Shown here: positions 1 through 10,703 of the stretch, in pieces
How positions within the stretch are numbered: position 1 is the first letter of the stretch
Layout: the number at the start of each line of letters is the position of its first letter
Assembly: GCA_003164305.1 (NCBI GenBank)
Contig: PLSZ01000559.1
Location: 1 to 10,703 of the forward strand
DNA length: 10,703 nucleotides
DNA from: Acetobacteraceae bacterium
GTDB taxonomy: Bacteria; Pseudomonadota; Alphaproteobacteria; Acetobacterales; Acetobacteraceae
Reading direction: 5' to 3'
Notes under the pieces: generated by a model
Databases searched by the model: none
Seen by the model: only the letters and a program-made list of their open reading frames with translations
What the model was told of the DNA's origin: nothing
Position numbers and translations under genes: made by a program

Positions 1-845
1 TGGACGACATCGCCGGTTTCGCGGGCACCGTGGCGACCTGGAAAGGCGGCGACTCGTTCGTCATCACCGGAGGCACGCTGTCGAACCTGGGTGTGAGCAA
101 TGGGAACACCTTGACGTTCTCGGATGCCGGCACCGGAGCGGGCGCGGGCGGGATCGATTCGATCATCTTCGGCTCGGGCATCAGCGCGGGGGCGTTTGGC
201 ATCGTCAACGGCAACACCGTGCAGGCGGTGGCGTGCTTCGCCGAGGGCACGCGCATCGGCACCGCGCGTGGCGAGATCGCGGTGGAGAATCTTCGCGTTG
301 GCGACCACGCGGTCACGGCGGAAGGTGGCGCGGAAGAGCCGATCGTTTGGATCGGGCATCGGGTTGTGAATTGTTCCGCGCATCCCCAGCCGGAGATGGT
401 GTGGCCGGTTCGGGTTCGGGCCGGCGCGTTCGGCGAAAACGTTCCGGAGCACGATCTTTATCTTTCCCCCGATCACGCGGTGTACGTCAACCACGTTCTG
501 GTACCAGTGAGGTTGTTGATCAACGGTAGCAGTATCGCCCAGGTGAAGCGGGATCGGGTGACGTATTTTCATGTCGAGTTGCCGCGGCATGCGGTCATCA
601 TGGCTGAGGGGCTGACGGTCGAGAGCTATCTCGATACCGGCGATCGGGCGAACTTTCGCGATGACGTCACGATCCGGCTGTTTCCGGACTTCGCGGGCCG
701 GTTGACGCCTGGGGCCGCGCGGCTGTGGGAAACCCGCGGGTGCGCGGAACTTGTTTTGTCGGGAACCAGGTTGGCCGCGATATGCCGGCGTCTGAAAAGA
801 CGCGAGGCCATGACGGTGTCAGCGCTGCGGAACGTCAGCCGGTAA
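1..845 (+). CDS. Hint_2-domain secreted beta-strand-repeat protein, C-terminal part (5' partial)
   Basis: The frame is open from base 3 to a TAA at 843-845, so the gene begins before the window. A GTG at 30 is in frame, but no Shine-Dalgarno precedes it and homologous-looking beta sequence continues upstream of it, so I do not take it as the start. The first ~75 residues are Gly/Ser/Thr/Asn-rich, as in extracellular beta-strand-repeat proteins. They lead into a Hint_2 domain (234-656), whose Cys is in the motif ACFAEGTRIGT. The final ~60 residues, with RLWETRGCAELVLSG and a basic end, are a tail I associate with Acetobacteraceae Hint proteins. Hint domains catalyse an N-to-S acyl shift that can cleave or modify the upstream polypeptide. 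There is no C-extein after the domain, so true protein splicing is unlikely. The stop lies 59 nt before the next gene. The domain call is firm; the biological role is unknown. Confidence 0.88.
   Translation, partial: DDIAGFAGTVATWKGGDSFVITGGTLSNLGVSNGNTLTFSDAGTGAGAGGIDSIIFGSGISAGAFGIVNGNTVQAVACFAEGTRIGTARGEIAVENLRVGDHAVTAEGGAEEPIVWIGHRVVNCSAHPQPEMVWPVRVRAGAFGENVPEHDLYLSPDHAVYVNHVLVPVRLLINGSSIAQVKRDRVTYFHVELPRHAVIMAEGLTVESYLDTGDRANFRDDVTIRLFPDFAGRLTPGAARLWETRGCAELVLSGTRLAAICRRLKRREAMTVSALRNVSR
234..656 (+). other. Hint_2 autoprocessing domain (within the first gene)
   Basis: The domain is about 141 residues, a usual size for Hint_2. The nucleophile-position Cys is encoded at 234-236, followed by FAEGTRIGT and the block IAVENLRVGDHAVT, which match the intein/hedgehog A-block pattern. 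The B-block-like segment is LYLSPDHAVYVNHVLVPV, with its His codon at 474-476. The closing signature is ESYLDTGDRANF at 621-656. The key Cys and His are both present, so the domain looks able to activate its N-terminal peptide bond. The nucleophile that would finish the reaction cannot be deduced from sequence. Confidence 0.87.
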
Positions 846-904
846 TTCCTCAGGTTGACCCGTGCCGCTCGTGCAAGCGCGCGGACCAGTAACAGGAGAA
901 ATCC
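846..904 (+). promoter_or_regulatory. Intergenic gap with ribosome binding site for the giant gene
   Basis: AGGAG at 894-898 sits 6 nt before the ATG at 905, a near-ideal Shine-Dalgarno spacing. An in-frame TAA at 890-892 rules out any start further upstream, so 905 is the first possible start after that stop. I see no T-tract terminator and no convincing -35/-10 promoter in these 59 nt, which favours co-transcription with the upstream Hint gene. Confidence 0.8.
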
Positions 905-3900
905 ATGTCGACCAACTCCTCCGGCCTGGACCCGCTGGACCTGGCGTCCGGTACGATCGCTTCCGTGTTCGATCCATCGGTTTTCCCCTTGGTGACGGTC
1001 GATCCGTTCAGCCTGAACTGGCCCACGCCGTGGCTGGAACTGAACGCGGGCGGCGTTGCCGCACCCGATGCTGGTCCACTTCCCGCTTTGACCGCGGCCA
1101 CGACGGCGCCAACGAATGACGATGCATCGGTCGCCAGCGCCGGCACCATGTTCGCGAGTTTCACGACATCCGCGGGCGTGAACACACCGTCCGTCCCGAT
1201 AACGACGTCGGCCAACCCCGGCCCGGTTGGCAGCCAGGGAAGTCTGCTGTTGGTGGCGGGTCTCGCCCATGCGACAGGCCCGGTTCTGGGCTCTGCCTCG
1301 ACCAGCGATGACACGATCGCGGGACGCGCGATCGACACCGCGGCGATCGTTTCTCTGACGGCATCGATCGACGGCGGGACCGTCTTCAGCGAAACCAGCG
1401 CGATCGGCGCGGGCGGAGGATTCACTCTCACGCCTGTCATGATCGCCGCCCTGGCCGGTGGTTCGTTAAGTAACGGAGCGCACACCGTCGTTGTCAGCGC
1501 GTCCGACGGCAGCGGCAACACGACGTCGGCCGGCGTCTCTTTCACGCTGGACGGTATCGCGCCTTCCTTGAATGCCGGTCTCACGGATGTCACCGGGACG
1601 AGCACTCTCGCGCAAACCATGGGGGCGTCGAGCAACGACACCGTCGCCGGGACCGGGACGGATGCCGCCGGCATCATCAGTCTTTATGGGACGCTGGATG
1701 GGGTTCGCGAATATACGAACCTGACCGGCGACATCGGCACCAACGGTGCGTTCACGCTCACTCCCACGGTACTGAATTCAATCGCTGGCGGAACGTTGCC
1801 GGATGGGCACCATTCGCTGGTACTACAGGCGACGGACACCGCGGGGAACGTGACGTCCCAGACCGTCGGCTTCACCTTGGAGACCGAACTCGGCGTCCCG
1901 ACCCTGGCGTTGGCGTCCGCCGATCAAACCACCGGTCCGACGACGACAAACTCCAGCGTGGTCACGCTGTTGGGCACGACGACACCTGAGGCTGTCGTGA
2001 CGCTGATGAACAACGGCGCCACCGCCACCGCTGGCCAGACGGGTTTGTTCCAGTTCGCGAACGTGCCTGTCAGTACGGGTGGAAACTCGATTTCGGTACA
2101 GGTGACGGATCTCGCGGGCAACACCTCCAGCGCGTCGCTGAACGTGGTGCAGGCGAATGCCGGGGGCACCGACCCGGTCATCGAATGGGACACGATCACC
2201 AACCAGGCGATCACCACGGACGCGTCGCCGCCGACGGTGGCGTCTCGCGCGCTCGCGATCGAAAGCCTGTCCGTTTATAACGCGGTGGCGGCGATCGATG
2301 GCACGCCCGGCTTTGATTCGAGTCTGATCGCGCCGTCCGGCGCCAACGCGCAGGCGGCCGTGATCGCGGCGGCGGACGCGGCGCTGGACTCGCTTTATCC
2401 GGCACAGGCCGCCGGTTTCGACGCCCAGGCGACGGCCGATCTGGCGGCCATTCCCAACAGTCTGTCGAAAACAGAAGGGATCGCGGTCGGCCAGGCGGCG
2501 GCGGCGGCGGAACTGGCACTGCGAGCGGATGATGGCTCGGCCAACAGTGTCACGGATACCGGCAGCCAGACCCCAGGGCAGTGGCAACCCACACCGCCCG
2601 CGTACGCTCCGGCGTTGACGCCGCAATGGGCGAGCGTCACGCCGTTCGCGCTGGATAATCCAGGCCAGTTCCTGCCGGCCGCTCCGCCGGCGATCGGCAG
2701 CTCGGCTTATGCCGCGGCCGTGAATGAAACCTACAGTCTGGGTGGGCTGAACAGCACCGCGCGCACGGCGGCGGAGACCCAGGCCGCGCTGTTCTGGAAT
2801 CTTCCGACCGGCACCGACACGCCCGCCGGCGAATGGAACGTGATCGCCGCGAGCGTCGCGCAAAGCAGCGGCGCCGGATTATCGGAAGACGCCCTGTTGT
2901 TCGCGGAACTGAACGTCGCTGAGGGCGACAGCGGAATCGCGGCCTGGAACGGCAAGTTCACCTACAGCGCATGGCGGCCGGTCACGGTCTTCACCGATCC
3001 AACGATCGCCAGCGTCAATCCGCTGATCGATTCGAGTTCGACCTGGACGCCCTTGCTCGTGACCCCGAATTTTCCGGAATACCCGGAAGGCCACGGCGTT
3101 TTCAGCGGCGCCGCCGCGACGGTGCTGGCGAGCTTCTTCGGCGACAACACAACCTTCACCGTTTCGTCGCAAACGTCTCCGGGTGGCGCCGATCTCACGT
3201 TCACGAGCTTCAGTTCCGCGGCCGAAAATGCCGCGATGAGCCGGATCTGGGGCGGCATTCATTTCACGTTCTCGGCCTCGACCGCGTTGACGGTGGGCGA
3301 CGAAATCGGCCAATGGACGCTGGGTGCCTTCAATTCCGGTTCCGATACGACGCCGCCGAAAGTGACGCTGAATAACGTGTCCGGCGGCACGACGAACACG
3401 GACCCAACAGTCACCGGGGTGGTGTCGTCAAGTTTTGGCGTCGCGGCATTGAACGCGCTGCTGCCTAACGGAACGACGGTCAATGTGCCGTTGAATTCGG
3501 ATGGAACGTTCTCATACACCGTGCCGGATGCGCTGGATGGCAGCGCGGATGGCAATCAGCAGATTACGTTCATCGCGGTCGATCCGGCCGGCAATCAATC
3601 GCCCGCGAACAACTACACGTTCACCCTGATCACTCAGGCACCTACCATCACCCTCGCTTCGGGAAGCGTGACGAACAACGCGACGATCGGCGCGAGTTCG
3701 GTTCTCGATGGGACGATTGGCGTCGAAGCGGGCGACACGCTTCAATCGCTCACATATTCGTTCGATGGCGGCGTGGCAACGCCGGTCGTCGCCAATCCGA
3801 CGACCGGAGCGTTCGACACGCCGCTGAATTTGACGAGCCTCACGCCTGGCCCGCACGAGTTGGCGCTGACCGCGCTCGACGCCGCCGGCAACACCACGAC

Positions 3901-6900
3901 CAAATACATGCCGGTCGTCTATGCTTTGCCGCCGCTGATTCTGACCAGCGTCACGCCGACGGTCGGCACCAGCAATGTCGGGGTGACTTTCCGTCCCAGC
4001 ATCACGTTCTCTCGGGCGGTGAACACCGCGACGCTGAACAGCACTGACTTCTATGCCACCGACAGCACGGGCGCGGTGCTGCCCGCGACAGTGGTGCCCT
4101 ACACCGACGGAACTGGTGCGTGGCTGTTGCCCACCGGCACGTGGCCGGGGTCGTCGATCGTGACGCTGCATGTGATCGGGCAGGATATTACCGCCGTGGC
4201 CGGCGGTGCCGAGCTTGACGCGGCCGATGTCGGGACGCCTGGCAGTTCGATCAGCGAAAGCTTCACCACGGTCGCCAGCACACCAGTGCCGGGGACCACG
4301 ATCACCGGCATCATTGTCGATCCCGGTCCGGACGGCACGCCGTTCACCATCGACGATGTGAAGTCGTCAGTCGGCAACTCGAGCGATTACGCCTCGGACA
4401 CCTGGAAGCTGCCGATCGCCGGAGCCACGGTTTATATCCTTGGCGACGAACAGGACGCCGTCAAAACGGCCGCCGACGGTTCGTTTACATTGACCAACGT
4501 GCCGTCAGGCGACGTCAAGGTCGTCGTCGATGGGACGACGGCCACCAATCCGCCGTCAGGTTATTACTTCCCGACAATGACATTGGACATCAACGTCAAG
4601 GCGGGCGTGGCCAACACGATTCCGGCGGATATGGGAACCCCCGCCGAGCAGGCGGGCATGGCGGGCGATCCGGCGGTTTATCTGCCGCGCGTGGCGGACG
4701 ATGCCCTGACGCCAATCAGCGGCACGCAGCCGACCACGGTGACCGCGGCGAACAACTCGGACCTTGGGTCCGGCGCGTTCACCATGACGCAGCAGCAGCT
4801 TTCGGAGTTGTCGCTGACCGTGCAGGCGAACAGCATCGTCGATGCGAACGGCAATCCGGTGGCCAACCCAATGGTTGGTATCGCTCCGGTGCCGGCCTCG
4901 ATCGTGCAGGACATGTTACCCGCTGGGCTGATGCAGCACAGCTTCGACATCACGATCCAGGCGCCTGGCGGGTCGGTGTTTTCGTCCGGCGCCACGTTAA
5001 CGATGCCCAACGTGTTTGGCCTGGCGCCGGGCGAGCAGACCTACATCCTGTCGTTCGATCACACGACCGGTCGACTTGTGATCGACGGCACCGCGACGGC
5101 TTCGGCCGACGGGCAAACGGTCACGACCAACCCGAGCACCACGATCATGGCGCCGGGCTGGCACGGCATGACGCCACCGGGCTCCAACGGCAACGGCAAC
5201 GTGGGGGACGATTATCCGTCCACCTACGGCGCGGCTTACAAGGCCTTCCTGCAGGCCGAAGGTCAGGCCAATCCGACGGCGATGGCGATCGTCACGGGCG
5301 GTAACGATTCGGTCAGCCAGGCGTCAAACGGCGCCGGTGTGATCACTGGCACGGCCGGGGCTCTGGGCGCCTCGCATGGCGGGCTGACGTTCCTCGGCGG
5401 CGTCAGCGCTGGCATGGACGCGGCGAACGGGATCCACAATTTCGCGACGAATGCCTCCCAGGTCGCCAATCAACCGACCAACCTCGGAGCCTGGGGTGTC
5501 CTCGGCGCACAGGCAGTGCATGACGCGGCGAACGAGTTCCTGGACCTCGGCAGCAACATCCCGGGGCCGGCGGGGGAGTGGGCGAATGGCCTTCGCGCGG
5601 CGACCTCCGCCGTCGATTTTTACGAGGGCATGCCGAGTTCCAATGCCAGCGTGCAGTCGAACGTCAACACGATGTCCAACTCAAACCCGTTCAGCACGCT
5701 GTCGGGTCATCAGGCGGTGTCGAATGAGGGGACGACGAGCGCGTTCGACGCCATCGTCTCGTCGGTCGACGCGGAGGTCGCGTATGAGTTGCCGATTTTC
5801 CAACGCATCCAGAGCGACCTGACGACGATCTCCGCGCTGGACGAGTTGAACCTGACGGAACCCAGCCTCGGCGTCACACCGGCGCAATTGGCGGCGCTGG
5901 CCACTCAGTTGCCGGCGATCCAAAGTGCGTTCGACGATTACCTGTCAGCGTCTCAGGCGCTCGTGGGTCATCCGACGGCGCTCGGTCTGGCCGAGGAGAT
6001 CGCGAACGGCCTCGCCACGGTGGAAGCCACGACCAACGCGGCGTTCTTTCTGGAAGTCACCCCACCTGTTTTCGCGCGCGGCCTCTCCTACATCGCGAAC
6101 CAGAGCGGCGGAGCGGCGCAGATCCCCAGTACCGCTCCCGCGAGCGCCTCTGGGCTGACGATGACCGCGGCCAATGTAGCCCCGCTCGCCCAGGCCGCGA
6201 CGGTTTTCCCGGCCGCGGCGCAAAGCGCTCAGGCGTTGGCGGTGGAGGATGTGTTCGACACCGGCGGCGTTGCAAGCGTTGCCAACCCGGCCGCGACCGA
6301 CACGGTTTATCTCGCGATCCAGGGCTCCGACGGCAGCATCCAGCGGATGAGCTTCACCGCGGATCAGGGCTACAATTTCTTCTTCGCCCCAAACCTTTAC
6401 TATCAAATAACGGCTTTCGATCCGACGACGAATTCTACCGGCGAGGCGTTCCTGCAAAGCGGCCCGTCCGGCCAGAACACGCAAATCCCACTGATCGGCC
6501 TGTCGCAGGATCCTGGCACGCCGGGCGCCGATGGGCTCACGCCGACCGAGGCGTTCGTCATCGGGGTCAGCAATACGACCGCGGACAATCTGGTTCCGGG
6601 GTTGACGGACCTGGCCGCGCTGCAGGAGGGGCTTTACAACGGAAGCGTGCTGCCCGGCACGACCGGCATCGTGGCCTCGGTATCGCTGAATGGCAGCGCG
6701 CAGGCGGTGGCGCTGGCCGGTTCATTGGCCAGCGGGCTGACCACGTATGCCTATGTGGCGACCGGCAGCTATGGGCTCGCGGTCGTCGATGTCAGCAACC
6801 CGGATGCTCCGGTGGCGCTTGGACAGATATCCCTGGGTGGCAACGCGACGGGCGTGGCGGTCAGCACGGCTTTGGGTATCGCCGTGGTGGCGAACGGAAC

Positions 6901-9900
6901 CGATCTCGCGTTCGTCAACGTCAGCGATCCGGCGCAGCTTTCCGTTCTCCAGACGGTTCCGGTCGATGCGACGGTCGCGCAGATCATCGGCGGCACGGTG
7001 TATGCCAACAACGGTGGGTCGCTCGACAGTTTCGACGTCGCGACCGGCACCTTGCTGCAAACGTTGGGTCTGGGCGGAACGACACTGACCGGGATCGCGG
7101 TCCAGGGCTCGACGATTTACACCATGGATTCGAGCGATACGCTGCGGGTCATCGACACCTCCAGCGGTTCGATGGTGCTCGACGGGTCGGTCACCCTACC
7201 TTACGGCGGCAATCAGATCTTCGTCGCCAATAATGTTGTCTATGTCGGCGCGGAGAGCGTCTCGACCGCCGGTGGTTATTTGACGGTCGATGTCAGCAAT
7301 CCGTCCGCGCCAGCCTTGATCGAGGGGCCTGACAACCGCGGTATCGGCGGGGCCGCGCTCGCGCTGAACGGTTCCGGAACCGGTTTGTCGGTCCAGCAGG
7401 GTCTGACACCGCAAGGCCAGATCGTCGATTTCGCCTCGGTCTTCAACACCTCGAGCCCGTCGAACACCGGTCAGTTCGTCACGCAATATAACCTGCCATC
7501 GCAGCCATACGGCGTGGCGATCGGTGACGGGACCGGTTTTGTCGCGGACGGCACAAGCGGACTGCAGGTGCTGAGTTATCTCGCCCCGGATACGGCCGGC
7601 GTCCCGCCGGTCATCGATAGTGTCACGGGCCCGGCGGATGTCGATCCAACGACCGCCGGGATCCAGGTTTATGAAGGCGTTCCGGTCTCGGTCAGCGCGA
7701 CCGTTACCGATGACGTACAAGTTCGGAACGTCGAGCTTTTGCTCAACGGTAGCGTCGTGGCGAACGCGGTGACGTTCCCCTTCGCGTTGACCGCGACAAT
7801 GCCCTCGATCGCGACCCTTGGCACGAATGTGGCGACCTTGCAGGTCGAGGCGATCGATACCGGCGGCAACACCACTCTTTCGACGCCGGTTCAGGTTCAA
7901 CTCGTGCCCGATACGCGGCCGTTGACATTGCTCAATCAGAGCGTCAGCGAAGGCGCCATTCTCAGCCAGTTCGATCGCACGATCAGCCTGACGTTCTCCA
8001 AGCCGTTGAACGCGGCATCCGTCACCACCGCCAATTTCGAGGTGCTGAACCAGGGCGGCACCGTCGTGACGGCCCAATCGCTGGAACTGTCCGGCGGCGA
8101 TCAGGTGGTGTCGCTGAACTTCGGCACGCTGGCGACGGGAGCCTACAAACTGGTTGTCGACGCACCGGCGGTCACTGACGATAACGGTGTCATATTGGGG
8201 GCGAGCACGCTGGCCACGGATTTCTCCGTCCAGGCGTTCTCGGCGATCTTCACCAACGCGGCTGGCGGCAGTTGGAACACGGCCAGCAACTGGAATGGCG
8301 ACTTCGTTCCGGGACCGTTCGATTCGGTTTACATTGGCAACGCCATCGGCGCGGCGGTCAATTACGACGGCAATACGGACAGCGTGACCCAGTTGGTGGT
8401 CAGCGGCAGCGGTCAGTTCAACGTGACCGGCGGGCAGTTGACCGTCACCGGCTTGTTTGAGGCCGACGAACTGATCACGGTGGGCGGAGGCGGTTTCTCC
8501 GCGCAAGGCTCGGTGAGCATCAACAGTCTGGGCGCGATTCAGGTCAACAACCGATCGACCGCGCTCGACAACGTCGCGATCGCGGCGGGCGGGCAGATTC
8601 AGATCAGCAACAATGACTTCCTGTATGTCGCCGGGACCTTCACCAACGCGGGCCTGATCGGGCTGAATTCCAGCAACAACGATACGGAATTCGACCCCAC
8701 CGGCAACCTGACGCTGAACGGCGGCGGCGTGGTTCAGTTGTCCGATAACGGCAACAATTATATCGATGGAAACAGCGCGGCCGTTACGCTGACCAACGCC
8801 GGCAACATCATCCGCGGCGCGGGCACCATCGGCAGCAGTGGCAGTCTGACGCTGGTCAATCAGTCCGGCGGCACGATCGACGCGACGAGCAACACCAACT
8901 GGCTGGCGATCAACGGCGACACGGTGACCAACACGGGACTGCTGGAGGGTACCGGCGCCGCGTCCCTGGCCATTCTGAGTTCCAGCGTCAACAACGCCGG
9001 CGGCACGATCTCGGCGCCCGACGCCGGTTCTTATGTGCAGTTCCGGTCGAGCAGCATCACCGGCGGAACGTTGTCGGACGCCAATGGCGGCATCATCCAA
9101 TCGATCGACCGCGGTGTGTCGCTGGATAACGTGACGTTGAGCACCGGCAGCGATCTGCACGTTACCAACAATAACTACATTTATCTGGCCGACACGTTCA
9201 CGAACAAAGGCACGGTGTTTCTCGACTCGATTAATAACGACACTGAACTGGATCCGACGGGCACCACCACGCTGACCGGCGGCGGCGTCGTCCAGATGTC
9301 GAACAACGGCAACAACTACATCGGCGGCCAGGGGGCGACCGCGACACTGATCAACGTCAACGACACGATTGAAGGTGCCGGCACGATCGGGGTGAACAAT
9401 TCGCTGACCCTGATCAATCAGTCCGGCGGCACGATCGACGCGACGAGCGCCACCAACTGGCTGGCGATCAACGGGGTCACGGTGACCAACACGGGCTTGC
9501 TGGAAGGCACCGGCCCGGCATCGCTGGCGTTTCTGAGTTCGGGCGTCAACAACGCCGGGGGGACGATCGCGGCGCCGGTCGCCGGGTCCTATGTGCAGTT
9601 CCGGTCGAGCAGCATCACCGGCGGAACGTTGTCGGACGCGAATGGCGGCATCATTCAATCGATCGACCGCGGAGTCTCGCTGGATAACGTCACTCTGAGC
9701 ACCGGCAGCGACTTCCATGTCACGAACAACAATTATGCGTATTTGAACGATACGTTCACGAACAAAGGCACGGTTTACCTCGATTCGACCAATAACGATA
9801 CGGAACTGAATCCGGACGGCACGACGACCCTGAACGGCGGCGGCGTCATTCAGATGTCGGACGACGCCAACAACTACATCGCCGCGCGGGGCACCGCGAC

Positions 9901-10703
9901 CACGCTGATCAATGTCAACAATGAGATCGAGGGCGGCGGTTCGATCGGCGCCGGCGGCAGCCTGACACTGGTCAATCAGGCTTCCGGAACGATCAACGCG
10001 ACCGGTACGAACAGCGCTTTGACGCTGGTCTCGGTCTCCATCACCAACGCGGGACTTTTGGAAGGTACCGGGCCGGCACCGCTGTCGATCGTGAGTTCGA
10101 GCGTCGCCAATACCGGTACCATATCCGCGCCTGTCGCGGGCTCGGCGGTCAACCTGTTCTCGGCGGGGATCACCGGCGGCACGCTGTCGGACGCCAATGG
10201 CGGCGTGATCCAGCAGACCAACCGCTCCAGCACGCTGGACAACGTGACGCTGAGCGCGTCCAGCAACATTCATGTGCTGAACTTTGAATACCTGTCTCTG
10301 GCGGACACCTTCACCAATAAGGGAACGGTGTTCCTGGACTCGAGCAACAACGACACTCAGCTGGACATGGGCGGCACCGCGCCTGTCACCCTGACAGGCG
10401 GTGGCGTCATTCAGCTTTCGGACAACAGCAATAATTCCATCGACGGGATCGGCGCGACCGTCACTTTGATCAATGTGAACAACACGATCCGGGGCGGGGG
10501 TCAGATCGGCGCGAACAACGGTCTGACCCTGGTCAATCAGGCCTCCGGCACGATCGACGCGACCGGCACCAACAATGCGTTGGTGCTGTCTACGGACACC
10601 ATCACCAACGCTGGACTTTTGGAAGGCACCGGAGCGGCGCCGCTGACGATTTCCAATTCGAGCGTCGCCAATACCGGCACCATATCCGCGCCTGTCGCGG
10701 GCT
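905..10703 (+). CDS. Giant multidomain adhesin-like protein with embedded vanadium-haloperoxidase domain (3' partial)
   Basis: One frame runs from ATG 905 to the window end without a stop, giving at least 3266 residues; the C-terminus is missing. The start follows AGGAG (894-898) and an in-frame stop at 890-892. The N-terminus (MSTNSSGLDPLDL...) has neither a basic n-region nor a hydrophobic core, so Sec export is unlikely. A C-terminal type I secretion signal beyond the window is a reasonable guess. Domains by residue: Ig-like ~124-419 (three), haloperoxidase/PAP2 ~423-810, Ig-like ~812-1010 (two), Big_5 ~1011-1122, carboxypeptidase-regulatory-like and following beta module ~1126-1432, Ala/Gly-rich helical stretch ~1433-1779, linker ~1780-1928, LVIVD-type propeller ~1929-2231, Ig-like ~2232-2336, Big_5 ~2337-2444, NW segment ~2445-2526, beta-solenoid repeats from ~2534. 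The composition (Thr, Ser, Asn, Gly, Ala, Asp; few Lys and Cys) fits a secreted stalk protein. Function is inferred: surface or extracellular matrix protein carrying an enzyme domain. Confidence 0.9.
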   Translation, partial: MSTNSSGLDPLDLASGTIASVFDPSVFPLVTVDPFSLNWPTPWLELNAGGVAAPDAGPLPALTAATTAPTNDDASVASAGTMFASFTTSAGVNTPSVPITTSANPGPVGSQGSLLLVAGLAHATGPVLGSASTSDDTIAGRAIDTAAIVSLTASIDGGTVFSETSAIGAGGGFTLTPVMIAALAGGSLSNGAHTVVVSASDGSGNTTSAGVSFTLDGIAPSLNAGLTDVTGTSTLAQTMGASSNDTVAGTGTDAAGIISLYGTLDGVREYTNLTGDIGTNGAFTLTPTVLNSIAGGTLPDGHHSLVLQATDTAGNVTSQTVGFTLETELGVPTLALASADQTTGPTTTNSSVVTLLGTTTPEAVVTLMNNGATATAGQTGLFQFANVPVSTGGNSISVQVTDLAGNTSSASLNVVQANAGGTDPVIEWDTITNQAITTDASPPTVASRALAIESLSVYNAVAAIDGTPGFDSSLIAPSGANAQAAVIAAADAALDSLYPAQAAGFDAQATADLAAIPNSLSKTEGIAVGQAAAAAELALRADDGSANSVTDTGSQTPGQWQPTPPAYAPALTPQWASVTPFALDNPGQFLPAAPPAIGSSAYAAAVNETYSLGGLNSTARTAAETQAALFWNLPTGTDTPAGEWNVIAASVAQSSGAGLSEDALLFAELNVAEGDSGIAAWNGKFTYSAWRPVTVFTDPTIASVNPLIDSSSTWTPLLVTPNFPEYPEGHGVFSGAAATVLASFFGDNTTFTVSSQTSPGGADLTFTSFSSAAENAAMSRIWGGIHFTFSASTALTVGDEIGQWTLGAFNSGSDTTPPKVTLNNVSGGTTNTDPTVTGVVSSSFGVAALNALLPNGTTVNVPLNSDGTFSYTVPDALDGSADGNQQITFIAVDPAGNQSPANNYTFTLITQAPTITLASGSVTNNATIGASSVLDGTIGVEAGDTLQSLTYSFDGGVATPVVANPTTGAFDTPLNLTSLTPGPHELALTALDAAGNTTTKYMPVVYALPPLILTSVTPTVGTSNVGVTFRPSITFSRAVNTATLNSTDFYATDSTGAVLPATVVPYTDGTGAWLLPTGTWPGSSIVTLHVIGQDITAVAGGAELDAADVGTPGSSISESFTTVASTPVPGTTITGIIVDPGPDGTPFTIDDVKSSVGNSSDYASDTWKLPIAGATVYILGDEQDAVKTAADGSFTLTNVPSGDVKVVVDGTTATNPPSGYYFPTMTLDINVKAGVANTIPADMGTPAEQAGMAGDPAVYLPRVADDALTPISGTQPTTVTAANNSDLGSGAFTMTQQQLSELSLTVQANSIVDANGNPVANPMVGIAPVPASIVQDMLPAGLMQHSFDITIQAPGGSVFSSGATLTMPNVFGLAPGEQTYILSFDHTTGRLVIDGTATASADGQTVTTNPSTTIMAPGWHGMTPPGSNGNGNVGDDYPSTYGAAYKAFLQAEGQANPTAMAIVTGGNDSVSQASNGAGVITGTAGALGASHGGLTFLGGVSAGMDAANGIHNFATNASQVANQPTNLGAWGVLGAQAVHDAANEFLDLGSNIPGPAGEWANGLRAATSAVDFYEGMPSSNASVQSNVNTMSNSNPFSTLSGHQAVSNEGTTSAFDAIVSSVDAEVAYELPIFQRIQSDLTTISALDELNLTEPSLGVTPAQLAALATQLPAIQSAFDDYLSASQALVGHPTALGLAEEIANGLATVEATTNAAFFLEVTPPVFARGLSYIANQSGGAAQIPSTAPASASGLTMTAANVAPLAQAATVFPAAAQSAQALAVEDVFDTGGVASVANPAATDTVYLAIQGSDGSIQRMSFTADQGYNFFFAPNLYYQITAFDPTTNSTGEAFLQSGPSGQNTQIPLIGLSQDPGTPGADGLTPTEAFVIGVSNTTADNLVPGLTDLAALQEGLYNGSVLPGTTGIVASVSLNGSAQAVALAGSLASGLTTYAYVATGSYGLAVVDVSNPDAPVALGQISLGGNATGVAVSTALGIAVVANGTDLAFVNVSDPAQLSVLQTVPVDATVAQIIGGTVYANNGGSLDSFDVATGTLLQTLGLGGTTLTGIAVQGSTIYTMDSSDTLRVIDTSSGSMVLDGSVTLPYGGNQIFVANNVVYVGAESVSTAGGYLTVDVSNPSAPALIEGPDNRGIGGAALALNGSGTGLSVQQGLTPQGQIVDFASVFNTSSPSNTGQFVTQYNLPSQPYGVAIGDGTGFVADGTSGLQVLSYLAPDTAGVPPVIDSVTGPADVDPTTAGIQVYEGVPVSVSATVTDDVQVRNVELLLNGSVVANAVTFPFALTATMPSIATLGTNVATLQVEAIDTGGNTTLSTPVQVQLVPDTRPLTLLNQSVSEGAILSQFDRTISLTFSKPLNAASVTTANFEVLNQGGTVVTAQSLELSGGDQVVSLNFGTLATGAYKLVVDAPAVTDDNGVILGASTLATDFSVQAFSAIFTNAAGGSWNTASNWNGDFVPGPFDSVYIGNAIGAAVNYDGNTDSVTQLVVSGSGQFNVTGGQLTVTGLFEADELITVGGGGFSAQGSVSINSLGAIQVNNRSTALDNVAIAAGGQIQISNNDFLYVAGTFTNAGLIGLNSSNNDTEFDPTGNLTLNGGGVVQLSDNGNNYIDGNSAAVTLTNAGNIIRGAGTIGSSGSLTLVNQSGGTIDATSNTNWLAINGDTVTNTGLLEGTGAASLAILSSSVNNAGGTISAPDAGSYVQFRSSSITGGTLSDANGGIIQSIDRGVSLDNVTLSTGSDLHVTNNNYIYLADTFTNKGTVFLDSINNDTELDPTGTTTLTGGGVVQMSNNGNNYIGGQGATATLINVNDTIEGAGTIGVNNSLTLINQSGGTIDATSATNWLAINGVTVTNTGLLEGTGPASLAFLSSGVNNAGGTIAAPVAGSYVQFRSSSITGGTLSDANGGIIQSIDRGVSLDNVTLSTGSDFHVTNNNYAYLNDTFTNKGTVYLDSTNNDTELNPDGTTTLNGGGVIQMSDDANNYIAARGTATTLINVNNEIEGGGSIGAGGSLTLVNQASGTINATGTNSALTLVSVSITNAGLLEGTGPAPLSIVSSSVANTGTISAPVAGSAVNLFSAGITGGTLSDANGGVIQQTNRSSTLDNVTLSASSNIHVLNFEYLSLADTFTNKGTVFLDSSNNDTQLDMGGTAPVTLTGGGVIQLSDNSNNSIDGIGATVTLINVNNTIRGGGQIGANNGLTLVNQASGTIDATGTNNALVLSTDTITNAGLLEGTGAAPLTISNSSVANTGTISAPVAG
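1274..2162 (+). other. Three tandem bacterial Ig-like domains (giant protein, residues ~124-419)
   Basis: Three consecutive ~90-110-residue units end in the typical Ig-like closing strands: SASDGSGNTTSAGVSFTLDG, ATDTAGNVTSQTVGFTLE and VTDLAGNTSSASLNVV. Each has the D-x-(A/S)-GN-x-(T/S) signature before the last strand, which is common in Big-type domains of large bacterial adhesins. They probably act as a spacer between the N-terminus and the haloperoxidase domain. The ~120 residues before the first unit are low-complexity and match no family I recognise. Confidence 0.78.
2171..3334 (+). other. Vanadium-dependent haloperoxidase / PAP2-type domain (giant protein, residues ~423-810)
   Basis: About 388 residues align by eye with bacterial vanadium-dependent haloperoxidases. 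It opens with VIEWDTITNQAI and SRALAIESLSVYNAVAAIDG. The middle has PSGANAQAAVIAAADAALDS followed by LYPAQ, then GQWQPTPP, PQWASVTPFAL, a QF-x-PAAPPAIGSSAYAAAV stretch and LGGLNSTARTAAETQAALFW. The vanadate pocket follows: Lys684 and Arg691 in GKFTYSAWRPVT (the 7-residue spacing of characterised enzymes), FPEYPEGHG with acid-base His730, and SRIWGGIHF with Arg780 and axial His786 (6-residue spacing). The usual Ser of SGH is Glu728. Family enzymes oxidise halides with peroxide to hypohalous species; relatives are acid phosphatases. Activity here is uncertain because of the Ser-to-Glu change. Being buried inside a giant Ig-repeat protein is unusual, as most members I know are stand-alone. Confidence 0.88.
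3335..4275 (+). other. Two Ig-like domains followed by an SbsA-type Big_5 domain (residues ~811-1122)
   Basis: The first unit begins DTTPPKVTLNNVSG and closes with FIAVDPAGNQSPANNYTFTL. The second begins APTITLASGSVTNN and closes LTALDAAGNTTTKYMPVV. From 3935 the sequence ILTSVTPTVGT, then FRPSITFSRAVNTATLNSTD and FYATD, fits the Big_5/SbsA Ig-like pattern of an S-layer-type domain (P-x-I-x-F-S-x-x-(V/L)-x-x-x-T-(L/V)). These look like spacer or adhesion modules between the haloperoxidase domain and the next block. Confidence 0.72.
4280..5200 (+). other. Carboxypeptidase-regulatory-like beta-sandwich plus downstream beta module (residues ~1126-1432)
   Basis: TITGIIVDPGPDGTPFTIDD is followed by PIAGATVYILG and TAADGSFTLTNVPSGDVKVV, the pattern of a carboxypeptidase regulatory-like or SdrD B-like sandwich, with an Asp-rich loop that may bind calcium. 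A second beta module follows with LTVQANSIVDANGNPV, the stretch DITIQAPGGSVFSSGATLTM, YILSFDHTTGRLVIDGTATA and APGWHGMTPPGS (Trp1419, His1420). From memory, this pair resembles blocks in very large secreted proteins of cyanobacteria and planctomycetes; that needs a database search. No catalytic residues are evident. Confidence 0.62.
5201..6240 (+). other. Unrecognised Ala/Gly-rich, probably helical region (residues ~1433-1779)
   Basis: Beta-sandwich character stops and the sequence becomes rich in Ala, Gly, Asn, Leu and Glu with few Thr-Val beta strands, for example YKAFLQAEGQANPTAMAIV and IQSDLTTISALDELNLTEPS. A glycine-rich stretch at 5327-5446 has many GxxxG-like spacings. Two low-complexity Ala/Ser/Thr/Pro segments follow towards 6240. 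I recognise no family. It may be a helical spacer or an uncharacterised functional domain. Confidence 0.4.
6686..7597 (+). other. LVIVD-type beta-propeller (residues ~1928-2231)
   Basis: The repeating pattern is 'visible value, then V-D-V-S-(N/D)-P', as in LVIVD propeller blades. Examples are AYVATGSYGLAVVDVSNPDA (from 6746), IAVVANGTDLAFVNVSDPAQ, VYANNGGSLDSFDVATG, IYTMDSSDTLRVIDTSSG, VVYVGAESVSTAGGYLTVDV leading into SNPSAP (7286 on) and GTGFVADGTSGLQVLSY. Six to seven blade-like units give one propeller of about 300 residues. Blades of this type occur in bacterial surface proteins, where they are thought to mediate binding. The preceding 6240-6685 stretch has degenerate D/P/G loops (DPGTPGADGLTPTEAFVIG) reminiscent of thrombospondin type-3-like linkers, but few of the calcium-ligand Asp are kept. 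Confidence 0.72.
7598..8236 (+). other. Ig-like domain plus second Big_5 domain (residues ~2232-2444)
   Basis: The first unit begins PPVIDSVTGPADVDP and has VSATVTDDVQVRNVELLLNG, closing with VEAIDTGGNTTLSTPVQVQL, an Ig-like pattern seen in large secreted proteins. The second, from about 7913, has SQFDRTISLTFSKPLNAASV and TTANFEVLN, then GAYKLVVDAPAVTDDNGVIL, the Big_5/SbsA pattern. The order propeller, Ig-like, Big_5, NW segment looks like one inherited block rather than chance assembly. Confidence 0.7.
8237..8503 (+). other. NW-motif entry segment of the beta-solenoid (residues ~2445-2533)
   Basis: The motif GGSWNTASNWNGDFVPGPFD is followed by SVYIGN and VTQLVVSGSGQFNVTGGQLT. The G-x-W-x-x-x-x-NW-x-x-x-x-VP-x-x-x-D-x-V-x-I pattern is common at the N-terminal edge of beta-helical stretches in large autotransporter-like and other surface proteins. 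It probably caps or begins the solenoid formed by the tandem repeats that follow. Confidence 0.65.
8504..10703 (+). repeat. Coding tandem repeat array, 555-561-bp (185-187-residue) beta-solenoid units
   Basis: Four units are visible: about 8504-9061, 9062-9619, 9620-10174 and 10175 to the window end (incomplete). The LDNV marker recurs at 8564, 9122, 9680 and 10235, giving spacings of 558, 558 and 555. A late marker in units 3 and 4 (TISAPVAG) is 561 apart because unit 4 has two extra residues at APVTLTGG. The shared order in each unit is ITGGTLSDANGG, LDNVTLS, TFTNKGTV, NNDTELDP, LTGGGVVQMSNNGNNYI, GAGTIG, SLTLVNQSGGTIDA, VTNTGLLEGTG, SSVNNAGGTISAP. Asn, Gly, Thr and short valine strands indicate a right-handed beta-helix stalk. 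A 50-bp stretch is identical at 9032-9081 and 9590-9639. The array probably continues past the window. Confidence 0.9.

Follow-up and report, generated by a model that had tools for sequence, protein, structure and literature searches.

The window analyzed here is a 10,703-nucleotide stretch of an Acetobacteraceae bacterium (contig PLSZ01000559.1, GenBank assembly GCA_003164305.1). It carries a giant open reading frame (ORF) on the plus strand (905..10702), with 3266 codons inside the window, that runs on past the window edge; a near-identical database protein is 4404 amino acids (aa) long. We read the product as a giant fibre, probably secreted, that belongs to a definable family of proteins and combines a fixed vanadium-haloperoxidase-fold (VHPO) oxidase module with an exchangeable cargo or recognition cassette, and we give this reading a probability of about 0.5. 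A preliminary description had recognized a complete haloperoxidase-fold domain within a long multi-domain protein, which Pfam and PDB sequence and fold matches confirm. The haloperoxidase-containing architecture is not an isolated fusion but recurs as a family. Its most unusual part is a block that can be exchanged, at about 5315-6334, outside the region (2171..3334) on which that description centred.

A recurrent family with a single module order

The VHPO domain is present in 115 of 120 collected giants, and the remaining five begin inside or downstream of its place. The collection takes in truncated proteins and two members, P0070 and P0071, that have nothing but the VHPO domain in common with the rest; in 31 of the 120, one or more of eight tested modules could not be detected. 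In all 89 giants that have the eight, the module order is identical: VHPO, Big_5, CPreg, ZU5-like, the insert, preP, LVIVD, Big_7 and Big_5 (CPreg and preP, like ZU below, are our names). Since relatives keep this order, the haloperoxidase fusion cannot be put down to an artefact, nor does it stand alone. The tail (aa 4200-4404) is matched in only 18 of the 120, and in P0010 at least the matching segment is not at the C-terminus. Scanning a genome collection with a single sequence recovered one relative at 37% identity; an alignment query would reach further.

A tree built from 111 giants together with 59 of the 118 small proteins that were usable required 7 changes of the 'giant' label, against a shuffled mean of 49.2. 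Giants P0050, P0052, P0056, P0060, P0061 and P0241 are nevertheless placed among small proteins, and some small proteins among giants, so that a single origin of the giants is not established. P0070 and P0071 represent a different fusion, joining VHPO to fibronectin type III and to a multicopper-oxidase-type Pfam domain (PF07731); their N-termini are hydrophobic. VHPO matches on plasmid records came from Phaeobacter in 58 of 98 cases, and one that we examined was a separate 1326-base VHPO gene adjoining transport genes.

The VHPO domain and its active site

The VHPO domain (aa 423-810; 2171..3334, on the plus strand like all features below unless stated) has the two-bundle fold of this class. 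Over its whole length its best PDB match, by sequence and by fold, is the vanadium iodoperoxidase of Zobellia galactanivorans (4cit, 4usz). The Zobellia protein is a single enzyme per PDB chain (458 residues), whereas the window domain is embedded in a giant protein and carries Glu728 in place of the loop serine. The five vanadate-ligand positions of the preliminary description were borne out by alignment and are the same as in the Zobellia enzyme, for which we presume the residue roles and numbering. They are Lys684 (2954..2956; Lys in 114 of the 115 giants with a VHPO domain), Arg691 (2975..2977; Arg in 113), and His730 (3092..3094), Arg780 (3242..3244) and His786 (3260..3262), each of these three retained in 112; the complete set is kept in 112/115. 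At Phe723 (3071..3073) the giants have Phe in 75, His in 37, Ser in 2 and Ala in 1; we take Phe to be the chloroperoxidase-like and His the bromoperoxidase-like state.

Glu728 (3086..3088) occupies the usual position of the vanadate-loop serine, which is Ser in 4cit. Of the 115 giants, 97 have Ser here, 10 have Ala, 7 Glu and one Asp, so serine is usual rather than strictly defining. Vanadate ligands have been lost in 3 of the 8 giants with an acidic residue here (P0006, P0228 and P0238, P0228 being aligned across only part of the domain) and in none of the 107 with Ser or Ala, a count uncorrected for kinship. These three are likely pseudo-enzymes retained within the fibre. Given Glu728 and this association, hypohalous acid production by the window copy is not assured. 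We classify its domain as a VHPO-fold homologue rather than a proven haloperoxidase. NapH3, also among the fold-search entries, bears an entry title indicating that other chemistry is possible on the VHPO fold.

An exchangeable internal cassette

The hypervariable insert of the window protein (approximately aa 1471-1810; 5315..6334) lies between the ZU and preP modules, a block whose length was measured in 100 proteins; 99 of these inserts (150-1265 aa, all above the 60-aa threshold) were compared. Only 516 of 4851 insert pairs show homology (BLAST, E <= 1e-3). The flanking modules are homologous in 99.7-100% of pairs (VHPO 4560/4560, CPreg 4465/4465, ZU 4851/4851, LVIVD 4851/4851, Big7 4644/4656). 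The 32 BLAST insert clusters are an upper figure, as profile search places P0007 and P0203 in the class of the window insert, and P0217 in that of P0021, P0193 and P0195. Even where VHPO identity is at least 90%, the inserts are related in just 5 of 12 pairs.

Exchange is seen within Rhizobium. Six Rhizobium proteins have VHPO domains that are 91-97% identical, and past the insert their Big7 modules are 83-93% identical in the ten comparable pairs; insert identity is 94% in one of the 15 pairs and 19-29% in the other 14, a range that is not proof of unrelatedness in every pair, since the P0021 insert (25-28% identity) is distantly related by BLAST to those of P0193 and P0195. P0019, P0196 and P0197 carry others. 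The inserts of P0193 (R. phaseoli) and P0195 (R. ruizarguesonis) are 94% identical, and cassette alleles therefore cross species or predate them. The same pattern is visible in DNA: the R. phaseoli gene matches that of R. etli at 91% over nucleotides (nt) 1-5885, has no match until nt 8413, and then matches at 88-94%; against R. beringeri, 88% identity over nt 1-6371 gives way to a stretch with no match that lasts up to nt 8062, after which identity is 83-88%. The guanine-cytosine (GC) content of the swapped stretches is 52.3-55.0%, against 59.3-61.5% in their flanks. As a separate observation, the gene that is single in R. phaseoli is annotated in two pieces in R. etli and in three in R. beringeri (L001 8626-20582; L010 8633-21056), which may reflect decay, phase variation or sequencing error.

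The window insert itself has no GC shift and is 73% identical to that of P0004, with flanks at 86-96%. When insert classes were mapped on a VHPO tree of 92 rows and compared with 200 shuffles, the long insert class (25 members) needed 19 changes where shuffling gave 22.1 on average, and 13 of the 200 shuffles were as low, a nearly random distribution. The window's class (12 members) needed 5 changes against 11.5, with no shuffle as low, and is therefore mostly inherited. The control trait, His or Phe at position 723, needed 7 changes against 23.7; it is a soft control, being a column of the tree's own alignment.

Some cassettes carry a recognizable signature. The zinc-protease motif HExxHxxGxx[HD] occurs in 19 of the 99 inserts, 18 of them from one 30-member long-insert class and one in P0041, whose insert also matches Matrixin in Pfam (E 9.7e-8). 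The window insert has no Pfam match and no PDB sequence match, and is predicted to be all-helical by a low-confidence model.

Other modules and surroundings of the giant ORF

A Big_13 immunoglobulin (Ig)-like domain (aa 330-418; 1892..2158; best Pfam stretch 332-414) directly precedes the peroxidase domain. The peroxidase domain is followed by two Ig-like modules conserved in relatives (aa 815-1008; 3347..3928; an NCBIfam Ca_tandemer stretch at 814-899 scores under the cut-off), a conserved Pfam Big_5 module (aa 1009-1120; 3929..4264), the conserved, carboxypeptidase-regulatory-like CPreg (aa 1125-1275; 4277..4729; Pfam CarbopepD_reg_2 under the cut-off), and ZU, a beta module that is possibly ZU5-like (aa 1276-1470; 4730..5314). 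Beyond the insert, the conserved preP module (aa 1811-1945; 6335..6739) is a beta region and then a stretch that we take to be thrombospondin-type-3-like from its pattern. The LVIVD propeller-type module (aa 1946-2230; 6740..7594) and the Big_7 and second Big_5 module (aa 2232-2420; 7598..8164; Big_5 in two stretches) are Pfam matches, also conserved. From aa 2425 to the window edge (8177..10702) repeats visible in the sequence form a solenoid-like stalk common to only a minority of giant relatives.

Upstream, a plus-strand frame (3-845) runs in from beyond the window edge and stops 59 bases short of the giant ORF, with a Hint_2 domain (PF13403, E 4e-46) at its end; it is the C-terminal part of a different protein, which may also be large and secreted. 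An antisense frame of 1168 codons (7196-10702, minus strand), also open at the edge, lies opposite the repetitive stalk and is probably a by-product of repeats and high GC. PADLOC, which covers phage defence, returned no match for the window's protein (P0001), and a plasmid DNA search with the N-terminal part (905-2170) found none.

The N-terminus of the window protein is not hydrophobic by crude hydropathy, and export would most likely proceed with no classical signal peptide; that the protein is secreted or displayed at the surface is a plausible reading. The RTX nonapeptide GGxGxD, a C-terminal mark of type I secreted RTX proteins, occurs nowhere in the 4404-aa protein, and some relatives have up to 8. 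No immunity gene, and no exporter of the kind that a type I secreted protein lacking RTX would need nearby, was recognized in three Rhizobium locus gene tables, which are incomplete.

Comparison with known systems

Animal peroxidasin is an extracellular haloperoxidase joined to Ig domains, as here, although it is a heme enzyme of unrelated fold and belongs to animals. MARTX toxins have conserved arms flanking an exchangeable middle; unlike them, the giants carry a haloperoxidase-fold module, and a Pfam scan of aa 1-3266 of P0001 alone, with matches taken up to E 0.1, listed no autoprocessing cysteine protease domain of the MARTX type. The giant bacterial heme peroxidases PepA (PMC3396595) and MopA, one of the 'long peroxicins' (PMC6247904), resemble the window protein in being large, multi-domain and bacterial with an oxidative enzyme domain. 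They differ in being heme enzymes of another fold with a haemolysin-type calcium-binding domain, and the accessible portions of those papers mention no exchangeable middle block. Polymorphic toxins of the RHS kind, as defined in PMC12419801, likewise combine a conserved scaffold with a variable module. Theirs is a C-terminal tip, whereas the variable block of the giants is internal and is followed by preP, LVIVD, Big7 and Big5. The CPreg and ZU stretch matches a Streptomyces RHS protein (28% identity, E 2e-6), and in P0056 and P0061 the ZU module is followed by RHS-type Pfam domains, along with YD-like motifs. The whole protein has an RHS- and MARTX-like plan and a build like that of the giant heme peroxidases, yet on the tests made it is a member of none of these groups.

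Proposed function and alternatives

We propose that these proteins form a long fibre that would be displayed at the cell or released from it. A fixed VHPO-fold module sits among Ig-like domains near the N-terminus, with the exchangeable cassette held between two conserved beta modules. After these come the LVIVD propeller, further Ig-like domains and a stalk that differs by lineage. The peroxidase module would oxidize halide with hydrogen peroxide near a bound target. The cassette, zinc-protease-like in some proteins and made of unknown domains in others, would add a second, diversifying activity against the target, or recognition of it; the protease-like cassettes favour an attacking role. 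It is tempting to go further, and we do so tentatively, at well short of even odds: the giants may be a hitherto unrecognized polymorphic secreted class found across several bacterial phyla. Its members would share an invariant peroxidase core, trade an internal cassette whole from one species to another, and act as oxidative weapons whose second warhead (a zinc-protease-like, a helical or an unknown domain) can be changed; in some side lineages the head would have become a pseudo-enzyme.

Several observations qualify the proposal of an oxidase fibre with a swapped cassette. Glu728 leaves the haloperoxidase activity of the window copy uncertain. Rather than marking a clean cut, protein identity beyond the Rhizobium inserts climbs back only gradually across preP and LVIVD. 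Pfam found no peptidase in P0010 despite its zinc-protease motif, and nine of the ten Pfam-scanned inserts (all but P0041) had no match over the cut-off. The main rival explanation, a possibility that we consider somewhat unlikely, is a variable adhesin, whose cassette would bind ligands on different surfaces while the peroxidase would cross-link or harden a matrix, by analogy with the peroxidasin plan. The Ig-like, Big_5, Big_7 and LVIVD domains, the repetitive stalk, the many inserts without an enzyme signature and the position of the insert in mid-fibre between conserved modules would all suit an adhesin; the zinc-protease motif in 19 of 99 inserts is unexpected for a pure binding domain.

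A different alternative concerns the window's clade, where Glu728 may weaken vanadate binding and the domain may have become a pseudo-enzyme, a structural or binding module, or a phosphatase-like enzyme. The company that an acidic residue at 728 keeps with ligand loss (3/8 vs 0/107) and the other chemistry indicated for NapH3 point that way. We nonetheless think such a change unlikely, as the five ligand positions are intact in the window protein and in the Glu proteins P0004, P0005, P0013 and P0015, and the ligand-loss count has the limits of kinship and partial alignment noted above. That an assembly or frame error has joined separate genes is exceedingly improbable. Copies in two Rhizobium plasmids are indeed annotated in pieces, but one order is shared by all 89 relatives that have the eight tested modules (among them R. 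phaseoli R744, where the gene is intact and in one piece), and on this ground we rejected an assembly artefact.

Significance

To our knowledge, most work on vanadium haloperoxidases has dealt with stand-alone enzymes, from algae, fungi and natural-product pathways. Among the literature matches listed (titles and abstract starts, with most subscription papers outside reach) there was no description of a giant VHPO architecture, and here the VHPO domain is a constant element of a giant multi-domain family that those matches do not describe. The Rhizobium strains, with near-identical peroxidase heads and different cassettes, make the roles of head and cassette separable. If the head is active, the family would explain why haloperoxidase activity should be present near plant roots and in other non-marine bacteria. 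Moreover, the swappable middle block hints at an unrecognized family of modular secreted weapons or adhesins.
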